From: Hexactinellida sp. DTS-2022
Taxonomy: Eukaryota; Porifera; Hexactinellida
Direction: 5' to 3'
Assembly: GCA_028753945.1 (NCBI GenBank)
Contig: JAPNXP010000010.1
Location: 4,033,042-4,097,041, forward strand
Length of the DNA stretch: 64,000 bases
Position numbers and translations under genes: made by a program
Part shown: one piece after another, positions 7,365-64,000 of the stretch
Position numbering within the stretch: position 1 is the stretch's first letter
How the letters are laid out: each line of letters begins with the position of its first letter
The notes under the pieces: generated by a model
The model's input: only the letters and a program-made list of their open reading frames with translations
What the model was told of the DNA's origin: nothing
The model's database searches: none

Positions 7365-7856
7365 GTGTTTTCAACACCCTTTGGAAATATAGCTGTTAAC
7401 ATTTGCTATGGAAGACATCATCCTCTCAACTGGCTCAGCTATTCTCTTAATGGTGCTGAAATTATTTTTAATCCATCAGCAACTGTTGGATCACTTTCTG
7501 AACCAATGTGGCCTATTGAAGCGAGGAATGCTGCTATTGCTAATACGGTATTTACTGCCGCAATTAATCGTGTAGGTACTGAAATCTTTCCTAACGAATT
7601 TACTTCAGGTGATGGAAAACCGGCTCATAATGATTTTGGTCATTTTTATGGTTCTAGTTACGTTTCGGCTCCTGATGGTAGTAGAACACCCGGGCTTTCT
7701 AGATTAGATGATGGGTTATTAATAACTCAATTAGATCTAAATCTCATCAGGCAGATAAAAGATAAATGGGGATTTCAAATGACTGCTCGTTATGAAATTT
7801 ATGCTGATCTGCTTACACGCTACACTAAGCCCACTTTTAAGAAACATGTGAATTAA
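7365..7856 (+). CDS. UPB1: Beta-ureidopropionase (UPB1), terminal exon
   Basis: The product is the C-terminal 163 residues of beta-ureidopropionase, which hydrolyses N-carbamoyl-beta-alanine to beta-alanine in cytosolic pyrimidine breakdown. The exon opens right after a splice acceptor (..AATCTAG at 7364) with GTG, an internal valine codon, so it is not a translation start. Motifs typical of this nitrilase-superfamily enzyme are visible. [12 protein letters not shown] holds the catalytic cysteine. [41 protein letters not shown] and SRTPGLSR follow in the family order. The frame ends at TAA with a C-terminal length as expected. Upstream exons were not found in the 7.3 kb before it, so the intron must be long and filled with repeats, or earlier exons lie outside the window. 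The frame is undamaged, unlike every neighbour, which fits a functional host gene. Confidence 0.93.
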
Positions 7857-12596: not shown

Positions 12597-14640
12597 CAGT
12601 GGAACCCCGGAATTACGGTCACCCTTGGGACCGAGAAAAATGGCTGTAATTTCGGGGTGGCCGTAATTGTGAACTTTTTTATAAAATCCATATTCAATTA
12701 ACATTTACCATACCATACCAATTAGAACATACTATTACATAATTACTAATTAAAATACGCATTTAAATTTGATTGCTTCTGATGACCTGGAAAATGTGCG
12801 GAAATGGCCTTTGCGTTGACTTTATCTTCAAGAGAAGACATCATGGTAAGGTCATCAGTCATTGACTGGTCTTTTAAGAATACCTTGAAATTCGCGATGC
12901 AGGATAACGCATCGATGAAAGTGAATTTCTTGATTTCTGGCTGCTCAATTGGTTCATCTTCATCAGAGAGATCTTCGGGGGTTTCATTTTCTAGTGAATT
13001 TTCCAGAATACGCTATTCCCATCCTCTTCTAAGTTATCATTAACTTGAATTTCACTATCAATGTGGACATATGCTTCAGGATCTATAATGACATTATCAC
13101 AAATGTTACGATCCAAGGCTTAATTAAGCAATTCTTTAATTGTTTCGATTTCTTCATCTTCGTTATTTGGTGTATCATCTTCGAAGTTCAAATTTAGTCC
13201 ACATTTGGAGAAATATTTCTGTACAGTACTAGGACGTATTTCTTTAATCGCAGCTGCTATCCATTGACAAGCATCTAGGATGTTAACGCTTCGAGCTACT
13301 GTTTCAGCCCCGCTACCATTATTGATTTGACTTACCACACGACGGAGAAGACGTTTTCGATAATGCAACTTCAAACACTGGATAATACCTTGATCAAGTG
13401 GTTGTAGAATAGAAGTGGTATTTGCTGGTAAAAATATCAATTTTATGTTAGTTAGAGAATTTCCTGGTGGATGACATGGTGCATTATCTAAAAACAATAA
13501 GATATGCCGATTATGATTGCGCATTTTGGCGTCTAAAGCATTTAGCCACTCATGGTATAGTACGCTAGTCATCCAAGCTTTCTTATTTGCACGATATGTT
13601 ACCGGTAAATGAAACGGCGGGATGTTCTTAAAACATCTAGGATTTAGACAGTGTCCAATAATCAATGTCCGCTCAAAGTCTCCCAACGCATTAACACAGA
13701 GTAAGCAAGTCACTCGATCCTTCGAACGTTTTCCTCCAGTACATTCTTTAGCTCGCTCATGCATAGTCTTGTCTGGAAGGGCACGGAAAAATATACCTGT
13801 CTCATCCATGTTGAATATATTGTGCAATTGATAACCTGATATGATAGATGCCAGTTTCTCCTTCCATTCCATTACTGTACCATCGTCAACTGATCCTCGT
13901 TCTCCACTTATTTTTCTACAGACTAAATTATGACGTTTATTAATAAATTTAGCCAGCCGTTTGATGCTTTAAATTCGTCAATTCCTAAAGATGCTGCGAA
14001 TTCTAATGCTTTCTCTTGAATCAACGGCCCAGAGAGGGGTATGTTTATTGAGCGAGCAGATTGAAACCAGTCCCACATAGCTGTGTCTAGAATATTATAT
14101 TCGTTGGAATAACAATGCCGCTTCCTGTCTCCTCTCAGATTTTCCTCATAAGCTGTCAAATAGTCTGTTTTTCGCTTAAGTATGGAGGATACCTGGGTTC
14201 TTCCGATATTAAATTTTTTCTGCCAATTGCCGATGCGATTGACCAGAACAATTTTTAATTAGCTCAACTTTTTGATTGAGATCCAGTTCATTGCGTTTAC
14301 TTGATGCCATTAATAACTTATGAATTACTGACAAAGTAATATGCTTTTGCATTTATAGGTTACTAATACAATGTATTGTTATTTAATTGTCAAGAAATTG
14401 TTTTCGTTTTCAAACATGTAATAATGATTCCCTATTGTTAAAAGTAATTGACCGTAATTCCGAAGTTAAAAATATGGTTTCGTTCTAAAACAAATGACCG
14501 GAATTCGGAATAGCGGGGTGGCCGTAATTCTGAAATAAATCAATGTTGATATCTATGTGAAGTCAGACGGGACTTTAAAAAGTGCCCGGAATATCGGGGT
14601 GGCCGCAATTCTGACTTGACCGTTATGCTGGGTTCCACTG
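12597..14640 (-). mobile_element. Tigger/pogo-type DNA transposon (2044 bp)
   Basis: TA duplications (12595-12596 and 14641-14642) flank inverted ends beginning CAGTGGAACCCCGGAATTAC and, on the other strand, CAGTGGAACCCAGCATAACG. Subterminal GGGGTGGCCGTAATT motifs recur at both ends. The transposase is on the minus strand. The element is inserted in the gypsy integrase remnant and is thus younger than it. Confidence 0.92.
13120..14310 (-). pseudogene. Tigger/jerky-type DDE transposase, two frameshifts
   Basis: The reading starts MASSKRNELDLNQKVELI (14310) with a CENP-B/psq-type helix-turn-helix. It continues with a second CENP-B-like DNA-binding domain (AMWDWFQSARS..LSGPLIQEKA) and the DDE_1 catalytic domain. 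Catalytic aspartates are seen in FNMDETG, LLFLDNAPCH and LQPLDQGII. The last two are separated by 30 residues, within the usual range for Tigger elements. Single-base frameshifts near 14213 (in a T run) and near 13945 break the frame. The last 250 codons (13120-13872) are open to the natural end. Such proteins cut and paste their own element at TA sites in the nucleus. This copy is inactive unless the breaks are sequence errors. Confidence 0.9.
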
Positions 14641-15750: not shown

Positions 15751-15953
15751 CCTTAAAAAAAAACCTGCAATATACCAACTATAATTATTCAATTGATGTA
15801 TACTCTTGAGAACACTTTAACCAGAAATCATAGAATTGTATTCCAAACTTACTACTAAGTAATTACCATGCGAGTATAAAGAGAGACAGATCGCATGTGT
15901 ATGTAACAACAACAACAGTACTAAATAATTGGTCATTTTATAATTTTCGATTC

Positions 15954-16945
15954 ATGGCAGGAAGGAAACAAGTTCCTATATCGTTACATTTCGATAGGTT
16001 TGAGACTCCTGGGATATCTAGTTGGAAAGCTAAGTGCACATTGTGCCAAAAGGAGATGCAAGGAGTGGTAAATAGACTTAAACAACATTATGCTATTTGT
16101 AGTTCAAATTCACAAGATCTTTCCATTGAGGCAATACAGTTATCCCAAGAAAATCCTCAAAATGATCTGTCTGATTAAGTGCATGCAACGTTTGTGAACA
16201 CCAAGACAAGTTATCTCCAAAAAAAGGAAGATTGTGACACAATTGGAAATTATACAATAAAAACCTCAAAATTAGAAGCTGAACTACTTGATGAGCAAAT
16301 TGCTCGATATTTCTATCCAACAAACAGACCATTTATAGTAGTGGGACATCCAGAATTTGTTAAACTAATAAGCGTGTTGCGTCCAGGTTACTCGCCACCA
16401 AGCCGCTATGATGTTGTTGGAAAGTTATTGGCTGAGGTACAAGGTTCATTAAAGAATACTTGCAGACAAACACTCGAAATAAAACAATTTCTTTGTCTTT
16501 GTACAGGTGGAGTAATGTTCATAACGAACCGGTTGTGTGCGTAAAGTGTCACAACTGATAAAGGAGATACATTTCTGACAGATACTATTGATATATCTGG
16601 ATGTGCTCACACTTCAGATTACCATACGCAGCTCGCAGAAAATTCCATTAAGTCTTGTCAAGAAAAATTTAATTGTCGTGTCGGAAGCGGAGTTACAGAC
16701 AATGCTGCAAACATGGACAGTTAGAAGAAAGTTCAAAGAAAACATGCGGATGGTCAGCCCATCTGCTAAATCTATTGGCACAAGATGTTCAAATCCCAGA
16801 AGTTAAAGAAGTGCTCCAAATTATTAAATATTTTCGAAAACCATCTACCGACCACAAGATACAGGGCTTCTGAAGTTAAAGCTCTTGTTCTTCCACATGA
16901 GGTGCACAGTGGAACGAAATGTTCAAATCCTGGAAGTAGCTATTT
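15954..16945 (+). pseudogene. hAT transposase, N-terminal half (broken)
   Basis: It opens with MAGRKQVPI and a BED-like zinc finger (KCTLCQKEMQ...RLKQHYAIC). It continues after a stop at 16176 with hAT core text (PTNRPFIVVGHPEFVKLI, LRPGYSPPSRYDVVGKLL). Further on, TDNAANM and LVLPHEVQWN correspond to the conserved T-D-N-A and 'RWN' regions of hAT transposases. Several stops and frame changes make it non-functional. The matching C-terminal half appears at about 19970-20705, on the far side of the Transib/RAG1-like pseudogene. AGCTATTT at 16938-16945 recurs as AGCTATAT at 20026-20033. Confidence 0.82.
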
Positions 16946-17247
16946 AGGTATGAGATAGGGGATTAAACTATATTTTTGCATATGGGAAATCGTATCCATA
17001 GAATCTATTGGTATAATTAGATTTTTTCCTGGCTTCAGGTGTGAAAGTTGTGACGTCATTGTCATTATATTTTGGGAATTTCTAATTAACTCACTCTAGT
17101 TACCCCAATCTGTATTATAAAGTTTATACAATTGAACATTATATCTATAAAAGCCTTATTATCAAAATTTGCTATATTATGTACAAATTCTTGAGGAAAA
17201 GCACTTTATTGATATCAATTACAGTAGATTTTCATTAATAAGTGAAT

Positions 17248-19325
17248 TTACGAGAATGTCTTGATCGCTTTTAGCTCCGATACATCTACCTCCAACACTT
17301 CTTTCGTATTATTACAAAATGAAGACAAAATAGGATCGCTATGGGAAATAAGCCTGATGAAGACATCTCAAACGTTATCTTCAAAGCTAAATTTCCTTGA
17401 CAACCTCTCGCGATATCGTCTCACAAGCTTATTACAAGCTTCTAACCCTTCCTCTGATAAAACTTCCAACCCATATCCACCATTGTGATCTGAAATGATT
17501 TGAGCTGCATGTGCAAGAAGTTTATGTAATGTTGGGGTGACGTGTCCATGAAAAATTTATCAAAATTGATTCATATGTCTCTCAGCATACATTGTCAAGG
17601 CCTTCAGTGTCTATTTTTCTATTGCTATTGTATAGCCTTAAAATAGCACCCAAATTATTAAAAAATTATTGATATTTTGATGATTTTATTGAGGGATAAC
17701 TGTCAAAACCCAATAAAGAAAATCTTTGACTGTATCATCCTTACGTGTGAAACACCTCCGAACAACATTTCCTGTTGCTGAAGTTTCACCCTGGACTGAT
17801 GGTGCGTCAATCGAATATTTATTTTTCTTTGATTAGGTTGTTAATAAACTTCTTATCACTTACAATTTTAACGAAGTCGGTGACCATTTTTTAGCACCAC
17901 ACTGTAAATGGGAGACTAATAATAAGAACCAGCTGAAAATTCCCAGATAAGCATGTAGAGTAGAAGCTGAAACTATATCTTTATCTGAGACTGCTTGTGT
18001 GTTAATTAAATTGAATCTCTGATTTGATGGCAAAGACAAAAAATAATCCTCATCAACCTCTGAATATAAAGCAAGATGTCATGAATTGTCCTATTCACAG
18101 GATATCCAGTTTTAACAAAACTAATGTCATGTATTTGAGCGAATCACGCTGTACACAATTGGCAACTTGCTCCACCAGCGCCGCTTAAGATTTTTGCCAT
18201 CTTCGTGTCGAAATGAGAATGAATTATCTTAACCCCGGCATGACCATTGTGTAAACTCAACCCGCTTTCTTCAATTGCTAAAGTCTCTTGATTTATTAGT
18301 GAATCCATCAAGAACTTCACATTTTCTTCATTCTCCGGAATGGCTAAAAGAGCAACATGTCTAGTAGAATATGGCGAATTAGGTTTATTTGGTTTCCACA
18401 GAATATTGTTGTTTGCATTTAGGATGGCGTTAATTTTAAACCCAAATAACAAAAATGACTTTGAGAGCTCAGGATAACTTCTTGCATGTTGATCACTCTA
18501 TGACACCCTGATCCAACTAGGCCATCGGACATTTTAACTTTGAGAGGAAAGTCTTGATTATTGACACTTAAGTTCATTACAATGCGCTCAACAGTATGGG
18601 AGAGTAGTTTTGTGTAAGAAATCCCTACTCCTATCGGAAATGCCCTATGAATCAGCCGCACCTCCTCCACCAAGTTAATTTGAGACCGATGAACAGCTAC
18701 CCTCTTATATCCGGGTAATTTGAGATCATCTGAGACCAAAGTACGTCGGAGTTCTAGATACTTAGTTTTGCCAATGTCAAGGGAGTCAATAAGAAACGCA
18801 GATTTATCCAGCGATAATTGTGGGCACATATGAGAATAATTTCCCTTATCGATTATCTCTTTGCAAACCTTAGCACTACTAAAGTCGAGGTCCTCATTAG
18901 AGCAAAGTAATAAGAGATAAGTCGTAAGTGTCTTAGGAGATACACTTTCGTTCTGAGTAGAAGTATCAAGATGTGATTTGAGGGAATAGAGACGATTCCT
19001 CTACGCTTTAGTGGTTAGATCACCAATCGATTTTCTTTTGATAATATTGAGGTCCTCTTCAAAGCTTATGGTAGAAGTGGTGCTCAACTTAGTTAACTCA
19101 ACTTAAATCCTCTTCGGAATATGACAAAAATACATAGAATTCCAAGTATCAAGGTCGAGTTCTTATGGAATAAGTCCCCTCTTTCTGAATCTCAGTAAAC
19201 TTCAAACGGAAGAAATTCAAATCATTTCGTTCGAAGCCGAAAGATGAAATAAATTGGTCAGCAATCGAGCGGGAACTATGTGTTTTGTGTTCGCAGAAAA
19301 ACTGAAAAGCTTCAGAGTTGTTCAT
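17248..19325 (-). pseudogene. Transib/RAG1-like transposase (decayed)
   Basis: About 692 codons of decayed frame run from MNNSEAFQFF (19325) to a TAA at 17248. RAG1/Transib hallmarks appear in order. LDKSAFLIDSL..YLELRRTL..LPGYKRV (about 18805-18700) matches the 'SxxxYxxLR...YP/LPSY' stretch. VKMSDGLVGSG carries the first catalytic Asp (codon 18526-18524). HSHFDTKMAKIL has the second Asp (18209-18207), followed by the CQLC zinc pair (about 18164-18153). TPTLHKLLAH (about 17538-17509) matches the RAG1 histidine pair. SEEGLEACNKLVRRYRERL has the catalytic Glu (17442-17440). The spacings are about 106 and 256 residues, against 108 and 254 in mouse RAG1 (D600, D708, E962). The length fits Transib transposases better than full RAG1, and no RING domain is seen. 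Stops and frameshifts are numerous. A splice-acceptor-like TTATTTAG precedes the start. No RAG2-like kelch repeats were found nearby. Confidence 0.82.
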
Positions 19326-19965
19326 ATTCTAAATAAGCATTAAAATACATTACCTACTAATTGTTGATTAAATTAAAAGATTTTTTCATAATTCAGCTAA
19401 GCAACCACATTGTTTACATACAACTTAGAATTTCGAATTTGTGAAATATTTCTAGTGCCTAAGTAAGTTCGAAGTAACTAAACTAATTTATCGGGAACTT
19501 TCGGGAATTAGAATTGGCTTTATTAAATAGAGAATTTAAAATGCTATCATTTAAAACTTACGAGAAAACTTGACAAAATGCGACAGATAAAGTTTTGAAG
19601 CTTTGTAGTCAACTAACGGATGAAATATATTATATTGAATTTATCAATTTATTGAACGTGATTATTTTATGTGTTATTAGAATTTAGAACTAGGATTAAA
19701 TACTCACCGTTATTATGAAACTCGTCTATAATAGCAACCAAAGAAGTAGTTAGAATGCACTAGTTGTATTTATTTTAAGAATTGAGTGTATAATACTCAC
19801 TGTTCATTTCTAGTTTTGAATAATTATTTCTCAACAATTAGAATAGTCACACTAGGCGAATTCCAATTGTAGCTATACAACGTGAGTTTTACAGCTATTT
19901 TATATTTTTGAAGTAATATAATATTCAGCTTTCAGTTTAGAATTAAACTGTTAAGATATTTGAGG
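19326..19965. other. Non-coding sequence 5' of the Transib/RAG1-like frame
   Basis: AT-rich, no ORF. On the minus strand it precedes the Transib/RAG1-like start and ends in TTATTTAG just before it, so it may hold a 5' intron and terminal region. I searched for CACWRTG-type ends forming an inverted pair with 16946-17247 and could not define them. Confidence 0.35.
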
Positions 19966-19969
19966 TAAA

Positions 19970-20705
19970 AAAATTGGCCTACTTCTCGGTGAGGTGCGAT
20001 GTAATACCGTTAGAAATGTTTGAAGAGCTATATTGCGAATTGGCCAATACTAGTTAAGGTTTTCGAGGAATACGGCGATGAAATTCATCTTAAAATAGCA
20101 AACAAGGTAAAGAATTATTCCATAAAACGAAAAGCCGATGAATTTTTATTTAGATTAAAGCCGATTTCATAGCTTTGGATTGGATTCAAAGAGATAATGC
20201 TATTACCAGCGAAACTGTTGGAAGATTTAATTAATACAGGACAGTTTACGAATGTACTAACCAATGTACACAATAGAGCTGCACAAGCCATTACCCCTGC
20301 ACTCTATTGTGCAAAATTAATCGATCCGAGATACCGAGGAGATTTAATTAGTACAGCGGAGATTGATAAAGCCATGGAGATATTAGTAATCGGTACCCGG
20401 AAACAATGGGAACTTTGGTAAAGTTTAAAGCAGACTGCGAACCTTTCAAATCATATACGTTCAACCAAAGTATAATTGCAAGCGTGAGACTTCGGTTCCT
20501 ATTGGTAGAGATCTCTAGATGGAATAGTGGAGAAAGAGTTTGTGGCGGTAGCAGAAAGTTTCTTGACAACTGTGGCATCAAGTGCAGAGTTGAACGCATA
20601 TTTTCAAAATTTGGATATATACATTCCAACATGAAGAATAAACTTGGAATCGAGAAGGCGGAAACACTTATGTTTATCTACAGAATGCTCAATCTATCTA
20701 AATAA
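19970..20705 (+). pseudogene. hAT transposase, C-terminal half (broken)
   Basis: Reading resumes with a KCLKSYIANWPILVKVFEEY segment at about 20020, then IANKVKNYSIKRKADEF and LDWIQRD. It ends with the hAT dimerisation region: PALYCAKLIDPRY (about 20306) and, after frame shifts, ERIFSKFGYIHSNMKNKLG with a natural stop at 20705. Together with 15954-16945 it accounts for most of one hAT transposase. About 50 bp around the join (the 'RWNTV' region) seems represented on both sides, so this may be an insertion with duplication or two overlapping copies. Confidence 0.82.
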
Positions 20706-30878: not shown

Positions 30879-32374
30879 GCAATTCAACCATCTCAAGGTC
30901 TTGTTTGGAATAGCGCTTAGTAATTGACCTCGCAGCGGTGGTCATAACAGCGAGATAGATATTGACATATAATTCCCGAATCTGTCCCTCGCTCCAAGAA
31001 CTCAAGAATAGAACGATAATGCATGAGGAACGCTTCCACGGCTGGTAGGTGCATTATCCACCGTGTGGGACATAGGGGCCGTAGGTTGTGGTTGTCTCTC
31101 TGTCCAATCTGAGCCAAAATTGCATTGAATCGGGCCCACTTTGTTGGTGAATTTTTGATGAACTTTACAACACCATTCATTCTTTCAAGTGCTAGAGAAG
31201 CCTAGGTGATGCCATTCAAAGATTCCTGCACAACTAAATTGAGCTGGTGACCGAAACAGTATAGGTAGATTGCCTTACTATTTTCTTTGAGAATCTTATC
31301 TTGCAAACCATTTTCTCGACCTACCGTGTTGGCAGCTCCATCATATCCTTGACCTCTGATCCAGGCGATTGGCAAATCAAAACTCATCAAAGATGTCTTT
31401 ACAAGGTTAAGAAGCGTTCCTGAGTCCGTACGAGCGGTGCTGTGAAAACCCAAAAATACTTCTTCTCTTTCCATGTGAACATTGCAAAAACGCAAACAGA
31501 AAGAGACTTGCTCTGTTCGATTGATATCCGTTGTATTATCAATTATGATAGAAAACAAGGGAACTTTTTCCTTCTCAATGGATTCATTTCTGATTCTTTT
31601 GATCAGGTCTCTGAGTAGAGAGTGAGATATATATTTCAATACTTCGTTCTGTAAATCCTTGGAGCAGAGTTTGAACTTCGCGGACGAAGAAAGATATTTA
31701 GAGACCTTGGAGTCGAACTTACCAATGAGACTCATCAAACAATTGAAATTCGCAGTATGCTCCTCTTCATGATGCCCTCTAAGAGTCATTCCTTGCTGGC
31801 CGTATAGTCTTACGCTTTCGAATATAGCTCTTAATGCCGTTCTGTTGACTAAAAATTCTTCTTTGATCGTGTTGTCAACCGTAACTCTGTGCTCAGCTAA
31901 TTTCCATGAACTTCTAAGGGCGGATTCTGCATCTCGGTGAATGCGACTCTCGTTGTGTTTCTTGATGCTTTCTTTACCTTTTTTGAATGTATGGAAACCT
32001 TCGTCCTTATTTATCCAGGGTAGCTTCGTATTCTTGAGGATGCTCATGTCGGTTACATTGAGGCGTCGGTTTTTGTATGCCCAATGACAGCTACCGCAGT
32101 AGATCGATGTCTTGTTTTCAGCCAGTTGTAGCCATGGGAAATCCTCAAACCACTGCTTCTGGATAGAGTGACCAGTTGCTGATTTACCAAACTGATCGGC
32201 AGGCTTTAGAGGAAAAGGAACCTCGATCTCCAGCATAATTGTAGAATGTGAAGATGCGAACGCGTCGGAGCTTGAAGCATCCACAACGACCTTTGGTTTC
32301 TTTTCGAAGTGAGCCAAAATGGAAGGCTGATTATCATGAGTAGGAATGTCCAAAGAGCGTTTAGAAAAAGACAT
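30879..32374 (-). pseudogene. hAT transposase N-terminal part (zf-TTF, DUF4371)
   Basis: A long open frame (32374-31202, 390 codons) starts MSFSKRSLDIPTHDNQPSIL. It has the TTF-type zinc finger region (FPWLQLAENKTSIYCGSC, HNESRIHRDA) and LYGQQGMTLRGHHEEE. Catalytic-domain text follows: IIIDNTTDINRTEQVSFCLR, in which the usual 'DE' appears as DN, then GQGYDGAANTVG and YLYCFGHQLNLVVQESL. After one stop at 31202 it continues in other frames (CPTRWIMHLPAVEAFL, about 31075) to the P-like insertion at about 30879. It belongs to the 'zinc finger MYM-type protein 1-like' hAT group. One stop, one frameshift and the insertion are the visible lesions. Confidence 0.9.
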
Positions 32375-32753
32375 AACATAAAGGGTAATTTACGTGAAAG
32401 TAAAACGAAAATATATTCCAGAAGATTTTCAGTGGTAATTAAGTGAATAATGTTTAGATCCCAAATTTATATGATATTCTCAATTATATATAGGTTCAAC
32501 ACTGTCAACACATGTTATATTACTTGACAGTAATGGTTTACTTGACAGTTTTGGTGTTCTTAACATTAACAGGTCAGATGGCTTCAATGCATTGGGTCAC
32601 AATTAGATGTATACAATAATTCTAAAATAATCGCATCGTATATGTATTATGACTAATATGTAGATATCGTTAACAAATATAGTAGCAAAGCCAGAAATAT
32701 TTATAAAATCTGGGGTGGCGCGCCATCCCTAACTCTCCGCCTATGCTTAGAGT

Positions 32754-36381: not shown

Positions 36382-39152
36382 CAGAAAGGGCTAGGGGGAC
36401 TATAGCCCCCCCTGAGATTTTCAGGGAAATGAGAGTTTTTGATTTTTTTCCAATCTGATTAGATTGATATAACAACTGGAGTTATTCTATTTTATTTTGT
36501 AACTGTTAAATCTGCTATGATTAATTTATAACCACAATATTTATAGTTATTTTGTATGATTATCATTCTAGTAGCAAACTCTCTACAGTGAAACATAGAG
36601 AGTCAAAATGGAACCCAAACGAATGCGAGTAACAGGATCAATTTTGACATACTTTGGCAACCAAAGTGTCAATAGTGTTGCTGATAGTGATTCCTGTGAG
36701 GGAGGGGCTATTTCAATCGAGTTATCCCAGTCGAACATTCACGGAAATATGGCTGACAGCGAGATGACAAGTAATAACGACACTACAAAATTTCCTACGA
36801 TTTGGGACTTTTTCCAAAGCCGTTAAGTAAGGAAGATCGACATTTTCTTGTTTCTAGCCCTCCTTTTCAGCCAACTGTGAATAATATGCCTAGAAAACAC
36901 TGCCCGAGGAAGATTTACTCCGGACAATATAGGTCGTTTCTATCTTCATGATACATGAAAACGCTCGAGCGGGAGAAAAGGTACCTCGATTGTGGTTGAC
37001 CTATTCACTTGTTAAGCATGCCATGATGTGCTTGCCATGCTTTCTGTTTGCCTTAGAGACTAGTGGAGTATCAGGGGAATATCGTTATTCAAAGGAGTGG
37101 TCAGAGGACGGTGTTAGTAATTGGAAGAAGGGGTTGGAGAAATTATGTGAGCATGAAAAAAGTGAATCACACCAAATTTGTTCAGAGAAGTTGGAAAACC
37201 TTCAATGTGGTGTGCCAATAGATGAAGTAATTGACAAGCAAAGGGCATTGGCAGCACAAAAAAGCCATGAGAAAATTCTCAGAAACAAAGCAATCCTGTC
37301 ACGTGTCATAGAACTTGTTGAGCTGTTTGCAAGGCAAAATATTTCATTACGTGGACACAGAGAAGATTCAGAAAGCCTTAACCGAGGGAATTTCATCGAA
37401 TTTCTACATCACCAAGCTCGATATGATCCGTTACTGAATGAGCACCTCTTTTCTGGAGCTAGAAATGCTCAGTACATAACAAAATCTACGCAGAATGAGC
37501 TAATTTCACTGTGTGCAGAAGATATCCGTGAGCAATATTTAAGCCTGCTAACAGCAGCAAAGTATTATACACTTATATGTGATGAGACAAAGGACATTTC
37601 CTGTGTTGAACAGGCAAGTCTAGTGCTTCGGTATGTCACTGAAGATACATGTGAACCAACAGAACGTTTCATGGGGTACAAATCACTGGAAGTGACCAAC
37701 GCTGAAAGTATAACAGAAATGTTAAAATCCTTTGTTTGCGAGCTCGTTCTTTCATTGTCAGATTGTCAGGGTCAGTCATATGATGGTACGGCGGTGATGT
37801 CAGGTAAATATAGTGGTGTTCAGACTCGGCTAAGACAGCTGGAGCCCCGAGCACTGTTTGTGTTATGCAATAGTCATTCGCTTAATCTTGCAGTTGTTGA
37901 CGCATGTAAGAACTCTTATATCCGCAACCTGTTTGGTACTCTACAGTTTATTCACACATTCTTCAACGGAGCTAAACGTCAAGCAGTATTAGAACATTGC
38001 AAACAAAACTCCAATATATCCTCTAGTTCCAAGCAGCGGAGATTGCAATCATTGTCAGACACACGTTGGAGTTCTCGTTTCAGTGCTCTAGAATCCTTTC
38101 AGTGTCTGAACCCTGTCGTTTTGGAAGCGTTAGAGAAACTCAGTACCATTCCAAGAATGGACAGAATTACAGTTTCAGTTGCTAATGGACTCCTCTCTAA
38201 TATAGGAACATTCGAGTTCATCCTTTCTATTAATGTAGCCAAAATGATTCTTGGTGTGACACAACCATTTTCGAACTTTTTGCAGGCTCCCAAGTTAAAT
38301 CTACTTAAGTTTAAAACAACTGCAGAGAGTGTGTATGATACACTGTGTGAGATGAAATCGATTCAGGTGTTTCCAGACGCATTCAATATATGTTCTGAAA
38401 GAGCAGCTGAACTCGGGATCGAAGTACGTTCAACAACAAGAAGAACAAAGAGGCTTGGACTGGCTGATGAGTGTCCCGAATCCTATTATAGAAGAGAATT
38501 GTACTTTGCAGTGCTCGATGAACTTACTTCCCAATTTCAGGAGAGACTGCTTGGAAGAGTAGGTGACGTAGTGACAGCATTCGGAATATTCAACAAAGAG
38601 GCCTTGCAATCTTCTGACTTACGAGCACCTCACATTACATTGCTTGCACAGTTCTATGGATCAGAATAAAATGCTGATATACAGGGCAATGCTCTTGCAG
38701 CAGAGTATAAAGTGTTTCTAAGATGGTGCACAAGAAATATAGACCTCACTAATCCCATTGACTTATTTGATTTACTCTGCTTATTAAAGAAGAAACAAGC
38801 TGAATGCATATACCCGAATATCTTCACCCTATTGAAGATTGGATTAACCCTTCCTGTTACTTCATGCACTTCAGAGAGAAACTTTAGTGAACTCCGGCTT
38901 CTGAAATCTTACCTGAGATCAACTATGGTTGAAGAACGACTTTCAAGCCTTGCAACCATTTTTTGTAATAAGGATCTCCACGTGAACATTGAAAATGTCA
39001 TTTCAAAGTTTGTTCAGGCTAGTAGTAGAAGACTAGAATTTTTGTTTTAGTTTGTGTCTAATTTTCTGTCTCAAAATGAATAACTAATAAGATAAATTAA
39101 CTTAAATTGTTAGCTTAGCCCCCCCTGAGATTATATCCTGGATCCGCCCCCG
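36382..39152 (+). mobile_element. hAT transposon with 5-bp duplication (2771 bp)
   Basis: AGTGT lies directly outside both ends (36377-36381 and 39153-39157). The left end CAGAAAGGGCTAGGGGGAC and the right end (complement CGGGGGCGGATCCAGG) are partly diverged. GCCCCCCCTGAGAT occurs just inside both in inverted orientation. The transposase on the plus strand is nearly complete. Confidence 0.82.
36608..39050 (+). pseudogene. hAT transposase (zf-TTF/DUF4371/dimerisation), nearly intact
   Basis: It starts MEPKRMRVTGSILTYFGNQS. A stop at 36824 and a frame change separate this from a 573-codon frame (36948-38669). That frame has the TTF-type finger (CLPCFLFAL, HEKSESHQIC) and ARQNISLRGHRED. Catalytic-domain text follows: LICDETKDISCVEQASLVLR (catalytic Asp), GQSYDGTAVMSG, VLCNSHSLNLAVVDAC and SLSDTRWSSR. 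After one more frame break the C-terminal frame (38712-39050) holds the dimerisation region (GLTLPVTSCTSERNFSELRL) with a natural stop. It belongs to the 'ZMYM1-like' hAT group, as does the copy at 25245-32745, but is clearly a different family. Only about two lesions separate it from a full frame. Confidence 0.9.
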
Positions 39153-47884: not shown

Positions 47885-49893
47885 CATACACTTGAGAAAC
47901 TTTATTCCTCTATTGGGTTAGAAAGTGACTATATGAGTTATCTTAATCAAACAACTACAAGTTTTTCTTCTCACTAAGAAACGTAATTGCTCAAATGGAC
48001 GAAATTCACGTTACATCCGATGTTTCTTATAAGGGTGGGCAATAATTGGTTCTTGTGTTGATTCTAAGTTCTAACGACCCTATTAAGACAGTTTTCGTAA
48101 TAATGGTTTCAAGTTTGCACAAAAAGTGGTCTCTGTTGTTCGATTAATTCCTCATTCTACAACTAGTGCACAAGTTATTTATCCTGTCATTATGCTGGTA
48201 ATTGCTGATATAGAACGGTGTGGACTTTCAGTTCAGGTGTTGTGCACTGATAACTATCCACTAAATGTAAGTATTTTTAAGTTATTTTCCTCTGATCAAA
48301 AAACCTTACAACCTGTCGTCCCTCATCCATTATTCGCAAACAGATCACTTGTACTAATGTTTGATTTTGTGCATATACTTAAGACGATTCGTAAAAATTG
48401 GCTGAATCTAAAAAATGAAAACCAAACTTTTGTGTATCCAAAGTTTGAAGATTTTTCACCTAACTGCACTCGATTCCCTCTTAACCTACAAACAGCTTCT
48501 TTTGATGATATTCGAACTATTTATAAGTTGGAACAAAACAGTATCGCGAAACTTTCACCGCGTCTTACAGCAAAAGCATGTTAGCCTTCCAAACTAGAAC
48601 GGCAGAATGTTAAATTGGCTCTCCGCATATTTGATGACTCTACTAGTGCAGCTCTTAAGATTTCTAATGAACCCCGACTCGAAAGGTTTAAACACCAGAC
48701 TGCAGAATTCATTGATATACTTGTTATGGTGTGGAAGATTTTTAATATCAATAGGCTGAATAAAGACGTTCGTTTGAATGACGAATTTTCTAAACAGCTA
48801 GTACTAGATGATCCTAGATTTGGGTTGATTACTCGCATTGTTAACTGGCTATATACTTGGAGATCATTAACAGGAAAACAAGGTAAATTAACACCCCAGA
48901 CTTTTACAAGCTTCAAACATACTTGTGAAGCGCTGCCTAATTTAGTCAATCACTTAACTTCTCAATGCAGATTTTCATATGTACTCACCTATTTCCTCCA
49001 GACAGAACCACTAGAACACCACTTCGGGTTGTATAGAATGATGTCTGGATCAAACTATCAAGTCTCATATGGCCAAATACTAAAAAATGAACGACGGCTC
49101 AAGATATCTAGTATATTGAAACTGTTTTCCCAGGATCCCTCTTCAAAAGAAAATAATCTGGGTTCGTTTATCAAATCTTTCTCACCGAAAGAAGACGTCT
49201 GTGATTCTCTTATCATAGATTTAGCACCATTTCTCTCAAAGCTACAAGATATTTCTACTGTAATCATTGGTTGCGAAACTCTTCAATCTTTGACATTTAT
49301 TGCAGGTTATTGCGTGCATCAATACTTGAAGAACAAGAAATTAACGCATTGTCGTGTCTGCCAAGATTTATTAATCATTGATAAGTACTTATTGTTTGAT
49401 CCAGAAGAAGCAAAAATATATAAGCTCATTGAAATCTTGGACAGAGGATCATTGAAGTGGCCTTCAAATTCTGTCTTAGAGTCGATCATTATTGTTTGGA
49501 GAATTCTAATCACTCTAAGACAGGGGTCTTCAACCTGCGGCTCGCGAGCCATTTGCGGCTGTTGAGCATGAAGCGTGCGGCTCGCAGGAGAATTTTTTTA
49601 TGAGTCACTCATTTGTTAATTTTGAAATGTGTTATCAGTATTCTGTAGGTATTTTATTCAACTGATATTGCGAATATACTTAAGTAGTAGCACTTTATTG
49701 TTTCTAATTCTGGAAACCTTAATGGTGTTTACATTATATAGAAGACTTTTGTTGTCTTCAGAAATTAATTTATGTCTTCTCAATATTCAAAACTCCAAGT
49801 ATAAATTAGAAGTATTCGACAATATATTATTTAATTTCCGGATATCAAATACTCTGCAATTACACATTTTTATTATTCATAAATTATTTACGA

Positions 49894-52929: not shown

Positions 52930-55900
52930 CACAGCCTACTTAACTATAGCCTATTCACGGTATTTAACCATGGATTACTTCAAGTCTTAAGTGCAAAATA
53001 CAAGCTGTATTGCATATCTATATTTTTAGCTGAAATTTAATGGAGTGTAATGAATATTAATACAATAGAGGTGGAAAATTGTGATAGTTCTCTCTCTTAC
53101 TACAAACTAACATGTATAAGAATAAAAATACATACTAAAATGGATATTATTCAGATTGTAATTTTTGTAGTTTTCTCTTGGATCCACCGTGATATTTTTC
53201 TAAGCTCCTTTTAGAATTCATATTGCGGACCTTATTCTTTAGTAAACAGTTGCTAGCGGCAGAGAGTATTTTGTTTAGATAAAAAAGGAAAGGTGTGTGA
53301 CAACTAGGGCAGTTAGATCTCCAGAAATCAAAACTCTCAAACTCTATCCTCGAAATTGAGAGTTGAATAAGAATAGTTTTGCTGGTACTAGCAACAAATT
53401 GTCTCATTAAGCAACTGTTCTGTTCAATTCTATAAAGGATCTTCCATAGTGCTGTGACTGCATTTAAAACTTCATCAGAAGGATATTTAAGTCCTCCTCG
53501 GTCTGCTAAGTGAATTAAGATCAAGTCAGATTCTTCACACTCCAGGGCAAAGCTTTCATCGTGTGTGAGTAAAGACAAGCATTGGGAACATAATGAAGTG
53601 GTGGCATTTGAAAGAAATTTCTTTGAATATAACTTTGACTTGCAAATACCATGTATAGCATATCCAGCAATGAAAGCCAAGGATTGGCGAATTTCTGTCA
53701 TTGGTGAAAAATCAAAGTTTTGGTGAAGAAGTGAAGAGTAAGTGCTTAGGTCTGTTGGTAGAGTTGCAGCGTTATCAGGTTCCATGTCACACGAGAAAGT
53801 TCCAACAAATTCCTTAAGCGAAGTCTCAAATTTGCTGTCTTGAGCTCGGTATATTTTTAAGATGTTAGAAAGTTTAATTCTACGTTCACTCTCAAGAATT
53901 TGGCACACAGAAATGTTGTAATTACAACCGGACATTAATCTGTAAACACCAAAGTGTTTTTCTAGAGAATCGTTTTGTAGAAATCCTGTTAGAACATAAG
54001 AAAATCCACAGTCATCACTGGTTAAATAGTTGACAATTTTTGGTATAACTTGACAGGTGTGAATTAAGCTGGTAAAAGTTTGTGAGCTAAGTTTTCCTGC
54101 TCTACCGCTACAACTAAAGGTCTTCCAATCCTGAAGCCAAGAAACAAACTTGGAAAAAAACACAAAACGGTCATCTTGAAGCTTGAAAACCTTTAAATCA
54201 GGATCACGTAAGCGAATATCTTTGCCTGGACTATGTATGTTACACATCTTCCAAAATCTGGTTATGAGAGAAATGAATTGATAGGTTTGGTTGGAAATAC
54301 AATTCTTTTCATTATACAACAATACTGCATTGTATGTTGACTGATCCCAAACCGCAAGAGCCAAAGGTACACTTTGTCTTTCAAGAACTGATGGCCAAAC
54401 AACTTTGGATGTTAATTTATGAGCGATCTTAGCGTTTGAATATTGTTCGGACTTGTAAATATTTCTGAGATCCTTGAATGAAGCGTTTGAAAGGTGATAT
54501 GGAAAAGTTTCACTAAAGTAATGATCAATTGATGGAAAGGTAAATGTTGTATTGGTATCCTTTTGATTTATCCAATTATTTCGGATACACTTCACAATAT
54601 GAACTGGATCAAACATCAAGAAAATAGATCTAGTAGGGTCTGATGGGTTTGGACAAGTTAGTTGTAAACTTGTACTACCAGCTAGAGACTTGAATAAGCT
54701 CACGTTTAGTTGATAATCGTCTGTACAAATAACTATTACTTTAAGGTCACACTTCTCGATGTCAATAATAACTTGCCTTACTATTGGAAGCAAGTCAGAA
54801 GATTTAGCATTGCAACATGGAAGGAGTCTCACAATTTCTGACCACTTTGTGAAAAGGCTTGTAACTTGAAAAGCTAAAACAGTCTTAGCTGGATCAAATT
54901 CAGAAGAATTGTTGTTTTCTGGATTTGTTGAATCAGTTTTGACAAAAGAGGAACCAAAGATTTTACCTCCTTTATAAGTGTAGTCTGACCTTACGTGAAT
55001 TTCGTCCAACTGTAGGAGGACATGTTTCTTGAATTTGTTGAAGTCTTGGGATGCAACCTTCAGGTAATCAATAAAATTTGTGTCCAAGCCAATGTTCGAA
55101 TACAGCCTCCGGAGAGTGGATGGATGAAGCAGAGAGAGGCATTCTAATGATTGCAAATAACGATAGCAACCTGAAGAGATTAGTTGGGCTTTGAGAGATA
55201 GAACCAAGGTTAAGACATTATATCGACGGTTATTCTTTGAAACCTTCAAATTTTCAAGTTGGCACAGGATAAACTGTAGCTGATTGAAGATGCCCTGGAA
55301 ATTTTTTCCTTCTTCGCAAGCTGTCAACTTCTCTATGGTAGATCTAACCGAACAAATAGCCTTATTGATACCAATCTCAATATCATCTCGTTGATATGTA
55401 TCAAGCTCTTGAGTTAACTGAGAAATTTGACGAATATCAGTTATAGAAGTGATTTTGGTTGGAATATCAACTTCATCTAGAAAACATCTCACATGCAATG
55501 TATCGTTAATACAGATCTGGTGAGACATAATCAATAACGGGCCAGATTGAATCTTCTTGAATATATGCAAGGTAGTTTGGCTTGAGCGAATATAGATCCA
55601 TTTTTCTGATAGATTTAGTGTAGAATACTTCAGCTCGATTTCATCAATATCAGAAACTGAAAAGCTGTCATTTTCCTTTTTATAATCCGCATGACTCAAC
55701 TCAAGAGCTTGATGAAAATGCCGGATATCAATTTCACCTCGGTTCAAACGTTCTGGGTGTTCAGAAGATCCTTGTAGATATGAAGGGCAATTAGGAAGAT
55801 TGAAGGGCTTGGCATTTTTCCGAAGACCAGGTTTTCTGGAAACTTTCTTTACTGTACCGTCACCTTGGGGAATATCGAAGTGAAGTAGTATATCCTCGTC

Positions 55901-56320
55901 ACAGAAATGTCTCGCACAGATGAAGACTCTCGCCAATTTCAATGCATCATCTCTATGGAGAAACCTTCGCCATTCATCTTGTATTTCTTTGGACCAATGA
56001 TTCAACAATTCAAACACTGGAACGTAATCAGTGCCGTCGTAATTGGAGCAGCAGTTGGCTACACTACACCTATTTGGCATATTGCTAAGGAAAATGTACG
56101 TGTGGATGAATAAATTGGGAATTAGGAAGAAAATGTATGAAATATTGTAGGGATTCTAGGGAATACACTACAACAATGATGCTTATCCTATATTATACAT
56201 TGCATTTTATCGTAGTCAAATTAATTTCAAACATTATGGTTTATTTATAAAATAGACTTGAAGTAATCCATGGTGAGGTAAAATTCCTACCGTGAATAGG
56301 CTATAGTTACGTAGGCTGTG
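52930..56320 (-). mobile_element. P-like (THAP9-like) element with intact transposase (3391 bp)
   Basis: The direct repeat CTATTTATA lies outside both ends (52921-52929 and 56321-56329); P elements duplicate 8 bp, so one base is fortuitous. Inverted ends start CACAGCCTACTTAACTATAG and CACAGCCTACGTAACTATAG: 33 bp with one mismatch, then an inserted stretch, then CCATGGATTACTTCAAGTC in both. It lies within an older relative of its own superfamily. Confidence 0.94.
53147..56080 (-). CDS. P-element/THAP9-like transposase, complete 977 aa
   Basis: One open frame without introns. A THAP C2CH zinc finger fills residues 1-95: Cys5, Cys10, Cys55 and His58 (FICARHF), with Trp37. A middle region follows, then an RNase H-like catalytic domain. 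LLQLDEIHVRSDYTYKGGKI holds Asp359. ICTDDYQLNVSLFK holds Asp454. The block with the FDPVHIVKCIRNNW motif (about 490-503) corresponds to the inserted region of P/THAP9 proteins. QNDSLEKHFGVYRLMSG holds Glu707. A C-terminal zinc-like CSQCLSLL and CPSC pair and a basic tail (GGSKRKLQKLQ) end the protein. Human THAP9 is about 900 residues and Drosophila P transposase 751. Such enzymes bind element ends through the THAP finger and cut and reinsert the element. The start Met directly precedes the THAP Cys, as in the relatives. The frame is intact and all catalytic positions are present, so activity is possible but unproven. Confidence 0.95.
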   Translation of the reverse strand: MPNRCSVANCCSNYDGTDYVPVFELLNHWSKEIQDEWRRFLHRDDALKLARVFICARHFCDEDILLHFDIPQGDGTVKKVSRKPGLRKNAKPFNLPNCPSYLQGSSEHPERLNRGEIDIRHFHQALELSHADYKKENDSFSVSDIDEIELKYSTLNLSEKWIYIRSSQTTLHIFKKIQSGPLLIMSHQICINDTLHVRCFLDEVDIPTKITSITDIRQISQLTQELDTYQRDDIEIGINKAICSVRSTIEKLTACEEGKNFQGIFNQLQFILCQLENLKVSKNNRRYNVLTLVLSLKAQLISSGCYRYLQSLECLSLLHPSTLRRLYSNIGLDTNFIDYLKVASQDFNKFKKHVLLQLDEIHVRSDYTYKGGKIFGSSFVKTDSTNPENNNSSEFDPAKTVLAFQVTSLFTKWSEIVRLLPCCNAKSSDLLPIVRQVIIDIEKCDLKVIVICTDDYQLNVSLFKSLAGSTSLQLTCPNPSDPTRSIFLMFDPVHIVKCIRNNWINQKDTNTTFTFPSIDHYFSETFPYHLSNASFKDLRNIYKSEQYSNAKIAHKLTSKVVWPSVLERQSVPLALAVWDQSTYNAVLLYNEKNCISNQTYQFISLITRFWKMCNIHSPGKDIRLRDPDLKVFKLQDDRFVFFSKFVSWLQDWKTFSCSGRAGKLSSQTFTSLIHTCQVIPKIVNYLTSDDCGFSYVLTGFLQNDSLEKHFGVYRLMSGCNYNISVCQILESERRIKLSNILKIYRAQDSKFETSLKEFVGTFSCDMEPDNAATLPTDLSTYSSLLHQNFDFSPMTEIRQSLAFIAGYAIHGICKSKLYSKKFLSNATTSLCSQCLSLLTHDESFALECEESDLILIHLADRGGLKYPSDEVLNAVTALWKILYRIEQNSCLMRQFVASTSKTILIQLSISRIEFESFDFWRSNCPSCHTPFLFYLNKILSAASNCLLKNKVRNMNSKRSLEKYHGGSKRKLQKLQSE

Positions 56321-61116: not shown

Positions 61117-64000
61117 CATAGCCTACTCAAATCAGGCCTCACAATAGAATGGGGATTTTGGACCAGGGATGCGGTCGAAGCCGGAATACCAAAATTTTGA
61201 AACCTATATTTTGGAATAAATTTGTTTGACCTGGTATTTGAAAACAACAAGGTTTTTACAAATTGGGTCATATTTTTTTACAAACTAGTTCATGACCGGA
61301 AACATCATTTTTAATTTTTGATATTTTAATTCACCCATGATATATAGCATTATATCCTGTTATAAAATCAAATTTTATTTTTTAATGAATATTCGTATAT
61401 TATATCTATCTTTTTTGCCCAGTCGATATTTTTCCCGATTTATACCAGATACTATTTAATTATTAAACACCAGCAGATGCCAACTAGTTGTTCGGCACCT
61501 GGTTGCAAAAGCAACTATAAATCTGAAGAAAGGATTACTCTTTTCAAGATGCCCCAGAAACCAGACCAAATCAGACAAGCTTGGGCTCGGGCACTCCGCA
61601 GAGATGATATAGATCAACTAAAGGCTGTATAAGTTTGCGTGAAGCATTTTCGGGATGAAGATATCGAGTACACACACAGGGTTCCCAATGGAGACGGTAT
61701 TTTTAGGGAAATTCCAAGAGTTAATCCCAAGCTGAAAGATGGTCTGTACCAGTTTTTCTACCAGGATGGTCCTCTTACTATTCTCAATCTGCAACAAAGC
61801 GGAGTCGCCTGTCTCTCGACTCTAAAGAAGATGAATTACTCAATCAAGCTTTGACACTTAGCTTGAAAACTGATACAGAAGAGAATGACAAGTTCAAGAT
61901 TACAAGTTTTCAGGATCTCCAAGATAAGTTATCATTTATTTCTATACCTAAAACTTGGTCATTATGGTACCCAGATGAACATAGCTTAATTTTTATGAGT
62001 CCTAATTTGGCGAATTCTCGTATCCTCGTTGATGTTTATCTGTTAGTAAAATTCGATCTTTCCATAAAGGCATTTTGTGATAATGAGACATTTCCACTTT
62101 CGTTAAGTTGCCTCAGTGATATTCGACATCTTGAGTCTGTTCTGAATGAACTGTATTTTTCGCGTCATCACTGTCAATCATCTAAGAAATCTGACTCAAC
62201 TACTGCGTCCCATGTATCTTCAGCGAAAGCTCACATCCAACAAGCCATCGATATTATGCATACCACTTCGTATTTAGAAACATCCGAGTCTCCATAACTT
62301 AATCGACTTCAATTCATTCAATGCCAGCTAGAAAATAGTCTTGTTCCCAAAATTCGACGTAGATACAACATACTCACTCAAATTCTCTCTCTCAAAACTC
62401 ATCTTATATCTCCTGCTTGTTATAAGTATCTCCAGCATATGTCTTGTCTATCCCTTCCTCACTTCAATACTTTGGAAAAACTGTATTCTTCCTTTGGGCT
62501 CGAAAACGAATTCTTTCCATTCCTTAGGCAAGCAAAGCATTCTTTTTCTATTGAACAAAAGAATGTTATTCTCCAAATGGATGAAATTCACATAAAACCC
62601 GATATATCATACAAGGGAGGCAAAATTATTGGTCCCAATATATGTCCTGATGATCCTACGAAAACTGTATTTGCTATCATGGTCTCGAGTCTTCAGAAAA
62701 AATGGTCCTGCATTGTTCGTTTATTGCCATGTGCATCTTTATCTGCAGAGAAGATATTTACCATTGTCAAATCTTGTATTCGAGATGTTGAGGCTTGTGG
62801 CTTATTAGTTGAGATCATTTCAACGGACAACTACCCACTTAACGTGAAACTCTTTAAGTTGTTCTCTCCTGTTGGTGATCTGGAAATTAAGGTACCCCAT
62901 CCTTGTGATAATAGTAGAGTCCTTTTTCTTACATTTGATTTCGTACACATATTAAAATCTATTCGTAACAATTGGTTGAACCTGAAATCTGACGCTAAAA
63001 GTTTCATCTTTCCTAATTTCGAAGATATTCGATCTGATTCTTGTTCTTTCCCTCTAAGATTGTGTTCAGCTTCTTTTCAAGATATCCGTACTCTCTATAA
63101 TTCTGAGAAGGAAAGCTTGGCCAAACTAGCTCCACGCTTGACATTGAAATCATGTTATCCTTCTAGTTTGGAACGTCAGAATGTGAAGTTAGTTTTAAAG
63201 GTTATTCATGAATCTACCATTGCTGCGTTAACTATTCAAAACGAGCAACGTTGTGCGTCATATAGAAATAACACTTGAGAATTCGTTGAAATTCTACTCT
63301 CATTATGGAAATCTTTTAATGTAAATGTCCCTTTTAAACATGTTCGTTTAAATGACCCACTATCTTGACCATTTTCTTTCAATGACGAGCGCTTTTCGTT
63401 ATTGTCTAAGATAATCTTTTGGTTAGAAGCTTGGCAATCGCTACCTGAGAAAGATGGGAAGTTAAGCAAACAAACTTTCACCAGCTTTAGACATGCCTGT
63501 CTTGTGCTACCTCAAATAACTAATCATCTAACAGGCAACTGTGGCTATTCTTACCTCTTAACGTATTTCTTGCAGACAGATCCTTTAGAGCACCATTTTG
63601 GACTATACCGTATGATGTCAGGTGCCAATTACCATGTTTCTTATCTTCAGATAATAGAAAGCGAACGTCGTCTGAAGGATTCTAGCATCTTAAAACTATT
63701 TTCAAGCCAGTCTGATTCTAGTAATTATTCAGTACAATAATTTATTCAGTCCTTTTCCTCTAAGGATAGCGCCTCATCGGGCAGTGAGATCAACCTTGAC
63801 ATTTTCTTAAATGAAATATCAGATTTATCGATTATTGATTGCGATATACCAACACTTCAATCTTTAGCTTTATTGCAGGATACTCCACACACCAATATTT
63901 GAAAAAATTGTACCATGTACCTTATGTCTGAATATGTTAACTATCGATAAAGATTTACTAGTTGATGAAGCATTCGTATCTCAGTATAAGCTCTTGGAAA
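61117..64000 (+). mobile_element. P-like element running off the window end
   Basis: It begins CATAGCCTACTCAAATCAGG, the terminus shared with other P-like copies, 360 bp before a THAP start codon. The right end lies beyond 64000. Confidence 0.85.
61477..64000 (+). pseudogene. P-like THAP transposase, intronless, several lesions, partial
   Basis: It starts MPTSCSAPGCKSNY (THAP Cys5 and Cys10) and ITLFKMPQKPDQIRQAW. A stop at 61630 falls just before VCVKHFRDEDIEY. There is no intron where the 42831 copy has one. A frameshift near 61850, a stop at 62297 and another shift lead to a 279-codon frame (62439-63278) with LQMDEIHIKPDISYKGGKII (first Asp), VEIISTDNYPLNVKLFK (second Asp) and FDFVHILKSIRNNWLN. 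After further stops, 63402-63740 holds LQTDPLEHHFGLYRMMSGAN (Glu). More decayed frame runs to the window edge. This copy is closest in sequence style to the 47885 copy. Confidence 0.9.

Follow-up and report, generated by a model that had tools for sequence, protein, structure and literature searches.

The window, by which we mean the whole stretch of 64,000 nucleotides that was analysed (G000:C2:4033042-4097041, from a genome of 112 Mb in 18 contigs), carries on its minus strand a decayed Transib element of about 3.1 kb, bounded by a target-site duplication (TSD; Table 1). To its relatives L010 and L014 the element is 91% and 90% identical in DNA sequence, respectively (blastn). A preliminary description had reported a fossil RAG1-like transposase at 17248..19325; the transposase remnant does lie there, although the whole element is longer and its AGGTG duplications fall outside that interval. 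The motifs picked out by that description (SDG, FDTKM, CQLC, TPTLHKLLAH and SEEGLEACNKLVRRYRE) are all present on the minus strand in the order claimed, and its view of the frame as decayed is borne out by tblastn with intact relatives, which recovers fragments spread over three frames and interrupted by 11 in-frame stops. Only the transposase-downstream end of the window copy has kept its heptamer; approximately 13 nt are gone from the upstream TIR, including the heptamer that is present in L010.

A 62-aa piece of the remnant (17371-17556), which surrounds the catalytic Glu, matched the Pfam RAG1 model (PF12940) with an E-value of 5.6e-6, scoring 25.2 bits where the cut-off is 25, and the remaining window pieces searched singly, including the longest of 193 aa, gave chance matches or none in Pfam and the PDB. 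The element appears to have been inserted into an older remnant, for which a weak hAT-like label is suggested by Pfam matches to Dimer_Tnp_hAT (E 0.076) and zf-BED (E 0.093), both under the curated cut-offs. The window element is a dead and quite ordinary representative of the cut-and-paste DNA transposons. That the locus might instead be a domesticated host gene has a negligible probability: we found no evidence for domestication of the window locus, and the frameshifts, the stops, the loss of the first catalytic Asp, the TSD and the insertion inside another remnant all speak against it. The domestication reading was rejected on the decay of the window copy, as seen in the tblastn pieces and stops.

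Table 1. Features of the window, with the evidence for each.
Feature	Position	Strand	Evidence or remark
Beta-ureidopropionase exon-like frame, likely host gene	7365-7856	+	2.7e-78 to best PDB chain
Pogo/Tc1-type transposase frame	13120-13968	-	DDE_1 (PF03184) 1.8e-41
Older hAT-like remnant flanking both sides of the element (weak assignment)	15834..20705	+	open frames, joined-flank frames
Target-site duplication AGGTG, left copy	16900..16904	.	flank read
Decayed Transib element, ~3087 bp	16905..19991	-	blastn borders common to relatives L010 and L014; ends and flanks read
Transposase-downstream TIR	16905..16950	+	heptamer CACAGTG; second block GGAAGTAG from 16932 (20 nt past heptamer)
Transposase remnant, start-codon side 19325	17228..19325	-	tblastn, intact L015/L016 proteins against the window
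Catalytic Glu (RAG1 E962 position), kept	17440..17442	-	
GAGGASCQLC block including the CxxC zinc pair	18153..18182	-	
Second catalytic Asp (RAG1 D708 position), kept	18207..18209	-	
D600-position codon, Val (GTT), catalytic Asp lost	18515..18517	-	
Remnant of RAG1-nonamer-binding-domain-like region	18884..19045	-	homologous to alignment A2 (RAG1 NBD match)
Transposase-upstream TIR, damaged	19958..19991	-	CAC beside TSD and GAAGTAGGCC kept
Target-site duplication AGGTG, right copy	19992..19996	.	flank read
DUF4371 frame	31202-32389	-	6.6e-14
DUF4371 frame	36933-38669	+	6.1e-18
Perhaps similar P-element-like piece	48087-49565	+	by eye; 48585-49562 matched TNP-like_GBD weakly (0.0053)
P-element-like transposase	53150-56155	-	1002-aa open frame; TNP-like_RNaseH_N 8.5e-15; THAP 2.6e-4, below its cut-off
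Perhaps similar P-element-like piece	61725-63278	+	by eye; no such match

Of the other features listed in Table 1, the two DUF4371 frames are presumably hAT-related. The GC content of the window is 33–39%. Elsewhere in the genome, the contig starts L049 (G000:C1:1-1200) and L051 (G000:C11:1-1200) lie in satellites whose repeat units measure 408 and 212 bp, respectively; telomere repeats were looked for there and found absent, and the C2 end (L050) starts in N. Searches of the genome gave no match to COX1, and none to wnt or Chitin_bind_4 in searches that had no positive control, and the closest match to a homeodomain of Hox type had 46% identity.

A transposase family related to HzTransib

The genome contains at least 151 matches to the 193-aa window piece and, among the matches listed, 13 fall within open frames at least 711 aa long, with no stop in the matched part. 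The Pfam RAG1 model gave 33 matches genome-wide, the window locus included at 25.5 bits. Some 2.8 kb past the right end of the window, at G000:C2:4099829-4100368, the transposase search finds yet another such match (39% identity, in an open frame of 244 aa). The word fossil is apt for the window copy but not for all of its kin, since the genome holds intact relatives, some of them near-identical at different sites. Six near-identical elements (L022, L031, L032, L035, L036 and L038; at least 98.6% in the pairs shown) have six different TSDs, which points to as many separate insertions. The intact copies whose existence had been proposed as a check are present: they encode a single transposase of ~710-750 aa with a RAG1-type DDE core. 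When relatives were sought in collections of genome contigs and viral contigs, 66 and 67 pattern matches came up, of which tblastn showed none to be a relative.

For comparison with known proteins we aligned ten intact members, one from each of ten hand-picked loci (alignment A1), all of which match Pfam RAG1 (E up to 1, best 1.7e-9). Searched against the PDB, the A1 profile finds HzTransib at 1.3e-45, amphioxus RAG1L at 9.2e-20 and mouse RAG1 at 3.3e-16, and pairwise identities follow the same order (24.1–28.5%, 20.0–23.2% and 17.8–21.6%). An AlphaFold model of L015 (mean pLDDT 66, pTM 0.51, with low confidence near the first catalytic Asp and in the zinc-binding part) has HzTransib as its top Foldseek match (1.7e-17); the 49 matches with E ≤ 0.001 comprise no chains other than those of HzTransib, RAG1 and amphioxus RAG1L. 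In a tree with these three long-branched references, support of 100/100 is obtained for a split that has the family and HzTransib on one side, amphioxus RAG1L and mouse RAG1 on the other. The ten proteins are united, apart from every reference, by a branch with 94/94 support, and the program warned about the long reference branches. Pfam, the PDB profile search, Foldseek and the tree thus uphold the proposed kinship with the transposases ancestral to RAG1.

The catalytic residues had been described as an acidic triad with RAG1-like spacing. Its second Asp and its Glu are correctly placed, but the Asp of SDG (codon 18526-18524) is not the first catalytic residue: it aligns with Glu597 of mouse RAG1, and D600 (numbered in the alignment by counting from the chain offset) falls three residues further on, where the profile and tree alignments place the second Asp of the DGLDGSG motif of the relatives. 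The window copy reads GLVGSG at this site and itself lacks the first Asp, while the DDE positions line up in all ten intact proteins. Counted from the correct Asp in six intact proteins, the first interval is 103–105 residues (106–108 from the first Asp of the motif) and the second 253–257, as compared with 254 for the second interval in RAG1 and with 99 and 211 in HzTransib. The claim of RAG1-like spacing therefore stands for the second interval, whereas the first is not distinctive. The second is RAG1-like and unlike that of HzTransib because a stretch of ~45–50 residues after the CxxC pair, which aligns with RAG1 and RAG1L, is absent from HzTransib, as judged by sequence alignment (the L015 model is poor there); this reason, a zinc-binding segment, is already given in the literature. 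The GAGGA run and the CxxC pair, put forward as a mark of the family, are invariant in the ten aligned intact proteins.

These RAG1-like traits raise the alternative that we are dealing with a transposon of the RAG1L type (RAGL), or with a separate RAG1-like branch, whose RAG2 partner has been lost. The second spacing and the zinc-binding segment would fit such an origin, as would the HKxLAH and PNS motifs shared with RAG1, an NBD-like region, and a C-terminal CxxC...GH...C tail that resembles the RAG1L tail and is present in seven of 19 elements, with 3, 5 or 6 residues from GH to the last Cys. The tail was not seen in the other 12, several of which are decayed and which include L010 of the window's own family. 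Profile, fold and tree nevertheless favour HzTransib, to which identity is also highest. A linked RAG2-like kelch gene, another of the proposed checks, was not found: the RAG2 model had no match in a search whose controls were silent too, which makes it weak, and outside the transposase reading none of 19 elements (one L024 border being assumed) has a frame of sufficient length, the longest being antisense and of 209 aa. An origin from RAGL is accordingly improbable in our judgement, and the RAG1L affiliation was rejected on the PDB profile search, the three-reference tree and the failure to find a RAG2-like gene; the suggestion of a divergent RAG1-like branch is not supported. We regard it as highly probable that the window element and its relatives belong to the Transib superfamily, within which they fit the kind called Subgroup I by Tao et al. 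2022 (PMC9435367). Of the features described for that subgroup, the family has asymmetric TIRs and, by sequence alignment, the zinc-binding segment.

Two spacing classes and matched ends

The ends of the elements read CACAGTG, mostly as CACAGTGG, with CACAGTG or one mismatch in relatives, so that the CAC-type terminal repeats anticipated in the preliminary description are indeed there. CACAGTG is the consensus RSS heptamer. An automatic scan of 41 loci (40 stretches and the window) recovered both ends with an exact 5-bp TSD in 22 and with one mismatch in two. The 17 loci for which it returned no TSD-bearing end pair include some one-ended cases and the window, whose damaged end is invisible to the scan. 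For the comparison of ends, 17 representatives were picked by hand, near-identical copies and loci without both ends being excluded; 16 of them have an exact 5-bp TSD, and L048 was retained despite its mismatched flanks.

When the two ends of each of these 17 elements are compared, shared sequence peaks when they are offset by +9 (identity 0.515 on average, against 0.379 for the highest of 2000 shuffles), and the longer-spaced end is the transposase-downstream one. The best shared 12-mer lies at +9/+10 in 13 elements (the exceptions being L016, L022, L025 and L045); at a comparison length of 20 nt the top score is at +9/+10 in eight, tied in four more and elsewhere in five. The same two spacings dominate genome-wide. 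The pattern CACAGTGG-N(5-30)-GGAARTAGG has 544 matches, its reversed control none, and 534 of the matches fall into two classes (N9-10, 196; N18-20, 338; other, 10), in which the second block begins 10–11 or 19–21 nt past the heptamer.

Short and long sites are also found together. Among 165 sites, from the stretch listed in full for both classes (C1 to C5:1.49 Mb), 31 of the 34 pairs of inward-facing neighbours at most 6 kb apart combine a short with a long end, as compared with a maximum of 27 in 10,000 label shuffles; the other three are like-like (two long/long, one short/short). No short/long preference is seen for outward (four) or same-strand (five) neighbours, and 97 of the 165 sites are without an inward partner having the exact pattern. 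A first count, among the 100 pattern matches listed, had given 20 of 21 pairs as short plus long. Twenty of the 34 inward pairs span 0.9–1.3 kb (e.g. G000:C2:1353699-1354867), a size that suggests short non-autonomous derivatives.

The second block varies from element to element but agrees between the two ends of any one of them. Its mean identity is 0.756 within and 0.523 between elements, with none of 20,000 permutations as high, and the positions right after the heptamer behave in the same way (0.765 within, 0.322 between). Reading of both ends by one protein explains this co-variation; gene conversion between the ends is the alternative, and it could likewise keep the blocks alike. It might also be held that the short/long asymmetry is no more than the legacy of a single ancestral element, without a function of its own. 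The families are all related, the second-block motif is recognisably common to them, and kinship does account for part of the regularity of the ends. Simple inheritance sits less easily with a block that drifts among families yet stays matched between the ends of each element, and with the retention of the two spacing classes by nearly all of the pattern matches; we consider it unlikely.

A candidate reader of the second block lies upstream of the catalytic core. The region covered by alignment A2 resembles the nonamer-binding domain (NBD) of RAG1: all 16 PDB matches with E < 0.1 are RAG1 NBD chains (best 3gna, 3e-5), and amphioxus RAG1L is absent from the A2 matches at this threshold. The similarity is modest, and for the solved HzTransib chain the alignment does not begin until profile position 170, past the NBD-like region. 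An NBD equivalent is reported for both Transib subgroups by Tao et al. 2022 (PMC9435367), and an NBD-like region is therefore expected here rather than new. Further upstream still, residues 1–66 of L015 are predicted to form an N-terminal three-helix domain (pLDDT ~80–90). The looser CTT1-type tail occurs in only seven of the 19 elements, and the asymmetry of the ends is thus seemingly independent of it.

A possible 12/23-like rule and its known counterparts

The boldest reading, held tentatively at a probability of roughly 0.45, is that these elements follow a 12/23-like rule independent of RAG2, whereby only a short plus a long end would be accepted, the signal would contain the RSS heptamer itself, and the NBD-like region would read a block with which it co-evolves in each family. 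In the most likely mechanism, a transposase dimer would take up one short-spaced and one long-spaced end, its catalytic core reading CACAGTG and its NBD-like region the second block, after which cleavage would proceed by nick and hairpin and insertion with a 5-bp stagger. Nick-and-hairpin chemistry is that of RAG1 and HzTransib and would operate in this family too; a short/long pair may be a requirement. If this reading is true, the constraint that gives V(D)J recombination its order would predate RAG2 and be a property of the transposase, and the genome would hold many natural variants of both the signal and its reader.

The family bears on the origin of the 12/23 rule, as a rich and testable 12/23-like case without RAG2. 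It combines its large number of matches with several subfamilies, intact frames, near-identical copies and co-varying signals in a single 112-Mb genome. With this material one can ask which region of the transposase recognises the second block, and whether a short end must be paired with a long one. Autonomous Transibs are stated to be typically present in a single copy, or in a few at the most, in any one animal genome (PMC4411706). What distinguishes the family, which is otherwise of a known kind, is how many copies it has, how diverse they are and how regular their ends. In the open-licence literature that we searched, neither the pairing of short with long ends across a genome nor co-variation between the two ends was described for Transibs. 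As regards recognition, PMC8355894 holds that 12/23 asymmetry is recognised by RAG1 only together with RAG2, and PMC7204232 argues that the RAGL complexes of invertebrates probably respond rather little to asymmetry of the TIRs.

The closest known counterparts are the Subgroup I Transibs, which, in the account of Tao et al. 2022 (PMC9435367), likewise have a single transposase, asymmetric TIRs, an alpha11-alpha12-like zinc-binding segment and an NBD-like region, and of which some members carry a C-terminal CxxC...GH...C tail. Their tail, CTT1, is given there as Cx2Cx3GHx4C, with four residues before the last Cys rather than the 3, 5 or 6 found here. The same account places Subgroup I closer to RAG1L in its tree than Subgroup II, and ascribes asymmetric TIRs to all of Subgroup I and to part of Subgroup II. 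HzTransib (6pqn and related structures) is the best match in both sequence and fold and shares the DDE core, the CxxC pair after the second Asp and SEExxE, but is without the zinc-binding segment (hence the shorter second interval). For a few insect elements, Drosophila Transib5 and Anopheles Transib2, N1, N2 and N3, 12/23-type asymmetric TIRs have been reported (PMC8355894), the asymmetry being what they share with the family.

Elements that carry RAG2L show related arrangements. Aureococcus RAGL (AanRAGL), as presented in PMC9435367, also has bipartite TIRs, with 4/13 spacers and thus the same 9-bp displacement of the second element from one end to the other, and differs in its RAG2L and in the sequence of its TIRs. 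Amphioxus ProtoRAG (PMC8289069) shares a CAC-type heptamer, a second conserved block and unequal spacers, and differs in having 27/31 spacers, RAG2L and the heptamer CACTATG. The V(D)J system itself uses spacers of 12/23 rather than 10–11/19–21, an A-rich nonamer in place of GGAARTAGG, and RAG2, which was not found in this family by the searches described above. With the V(D)J signals and RAG1 the family nonetheless has in common CACAGTG, two spacing classes that lie about one helical turn apart, the pairing of unlike ends, and the NBD.
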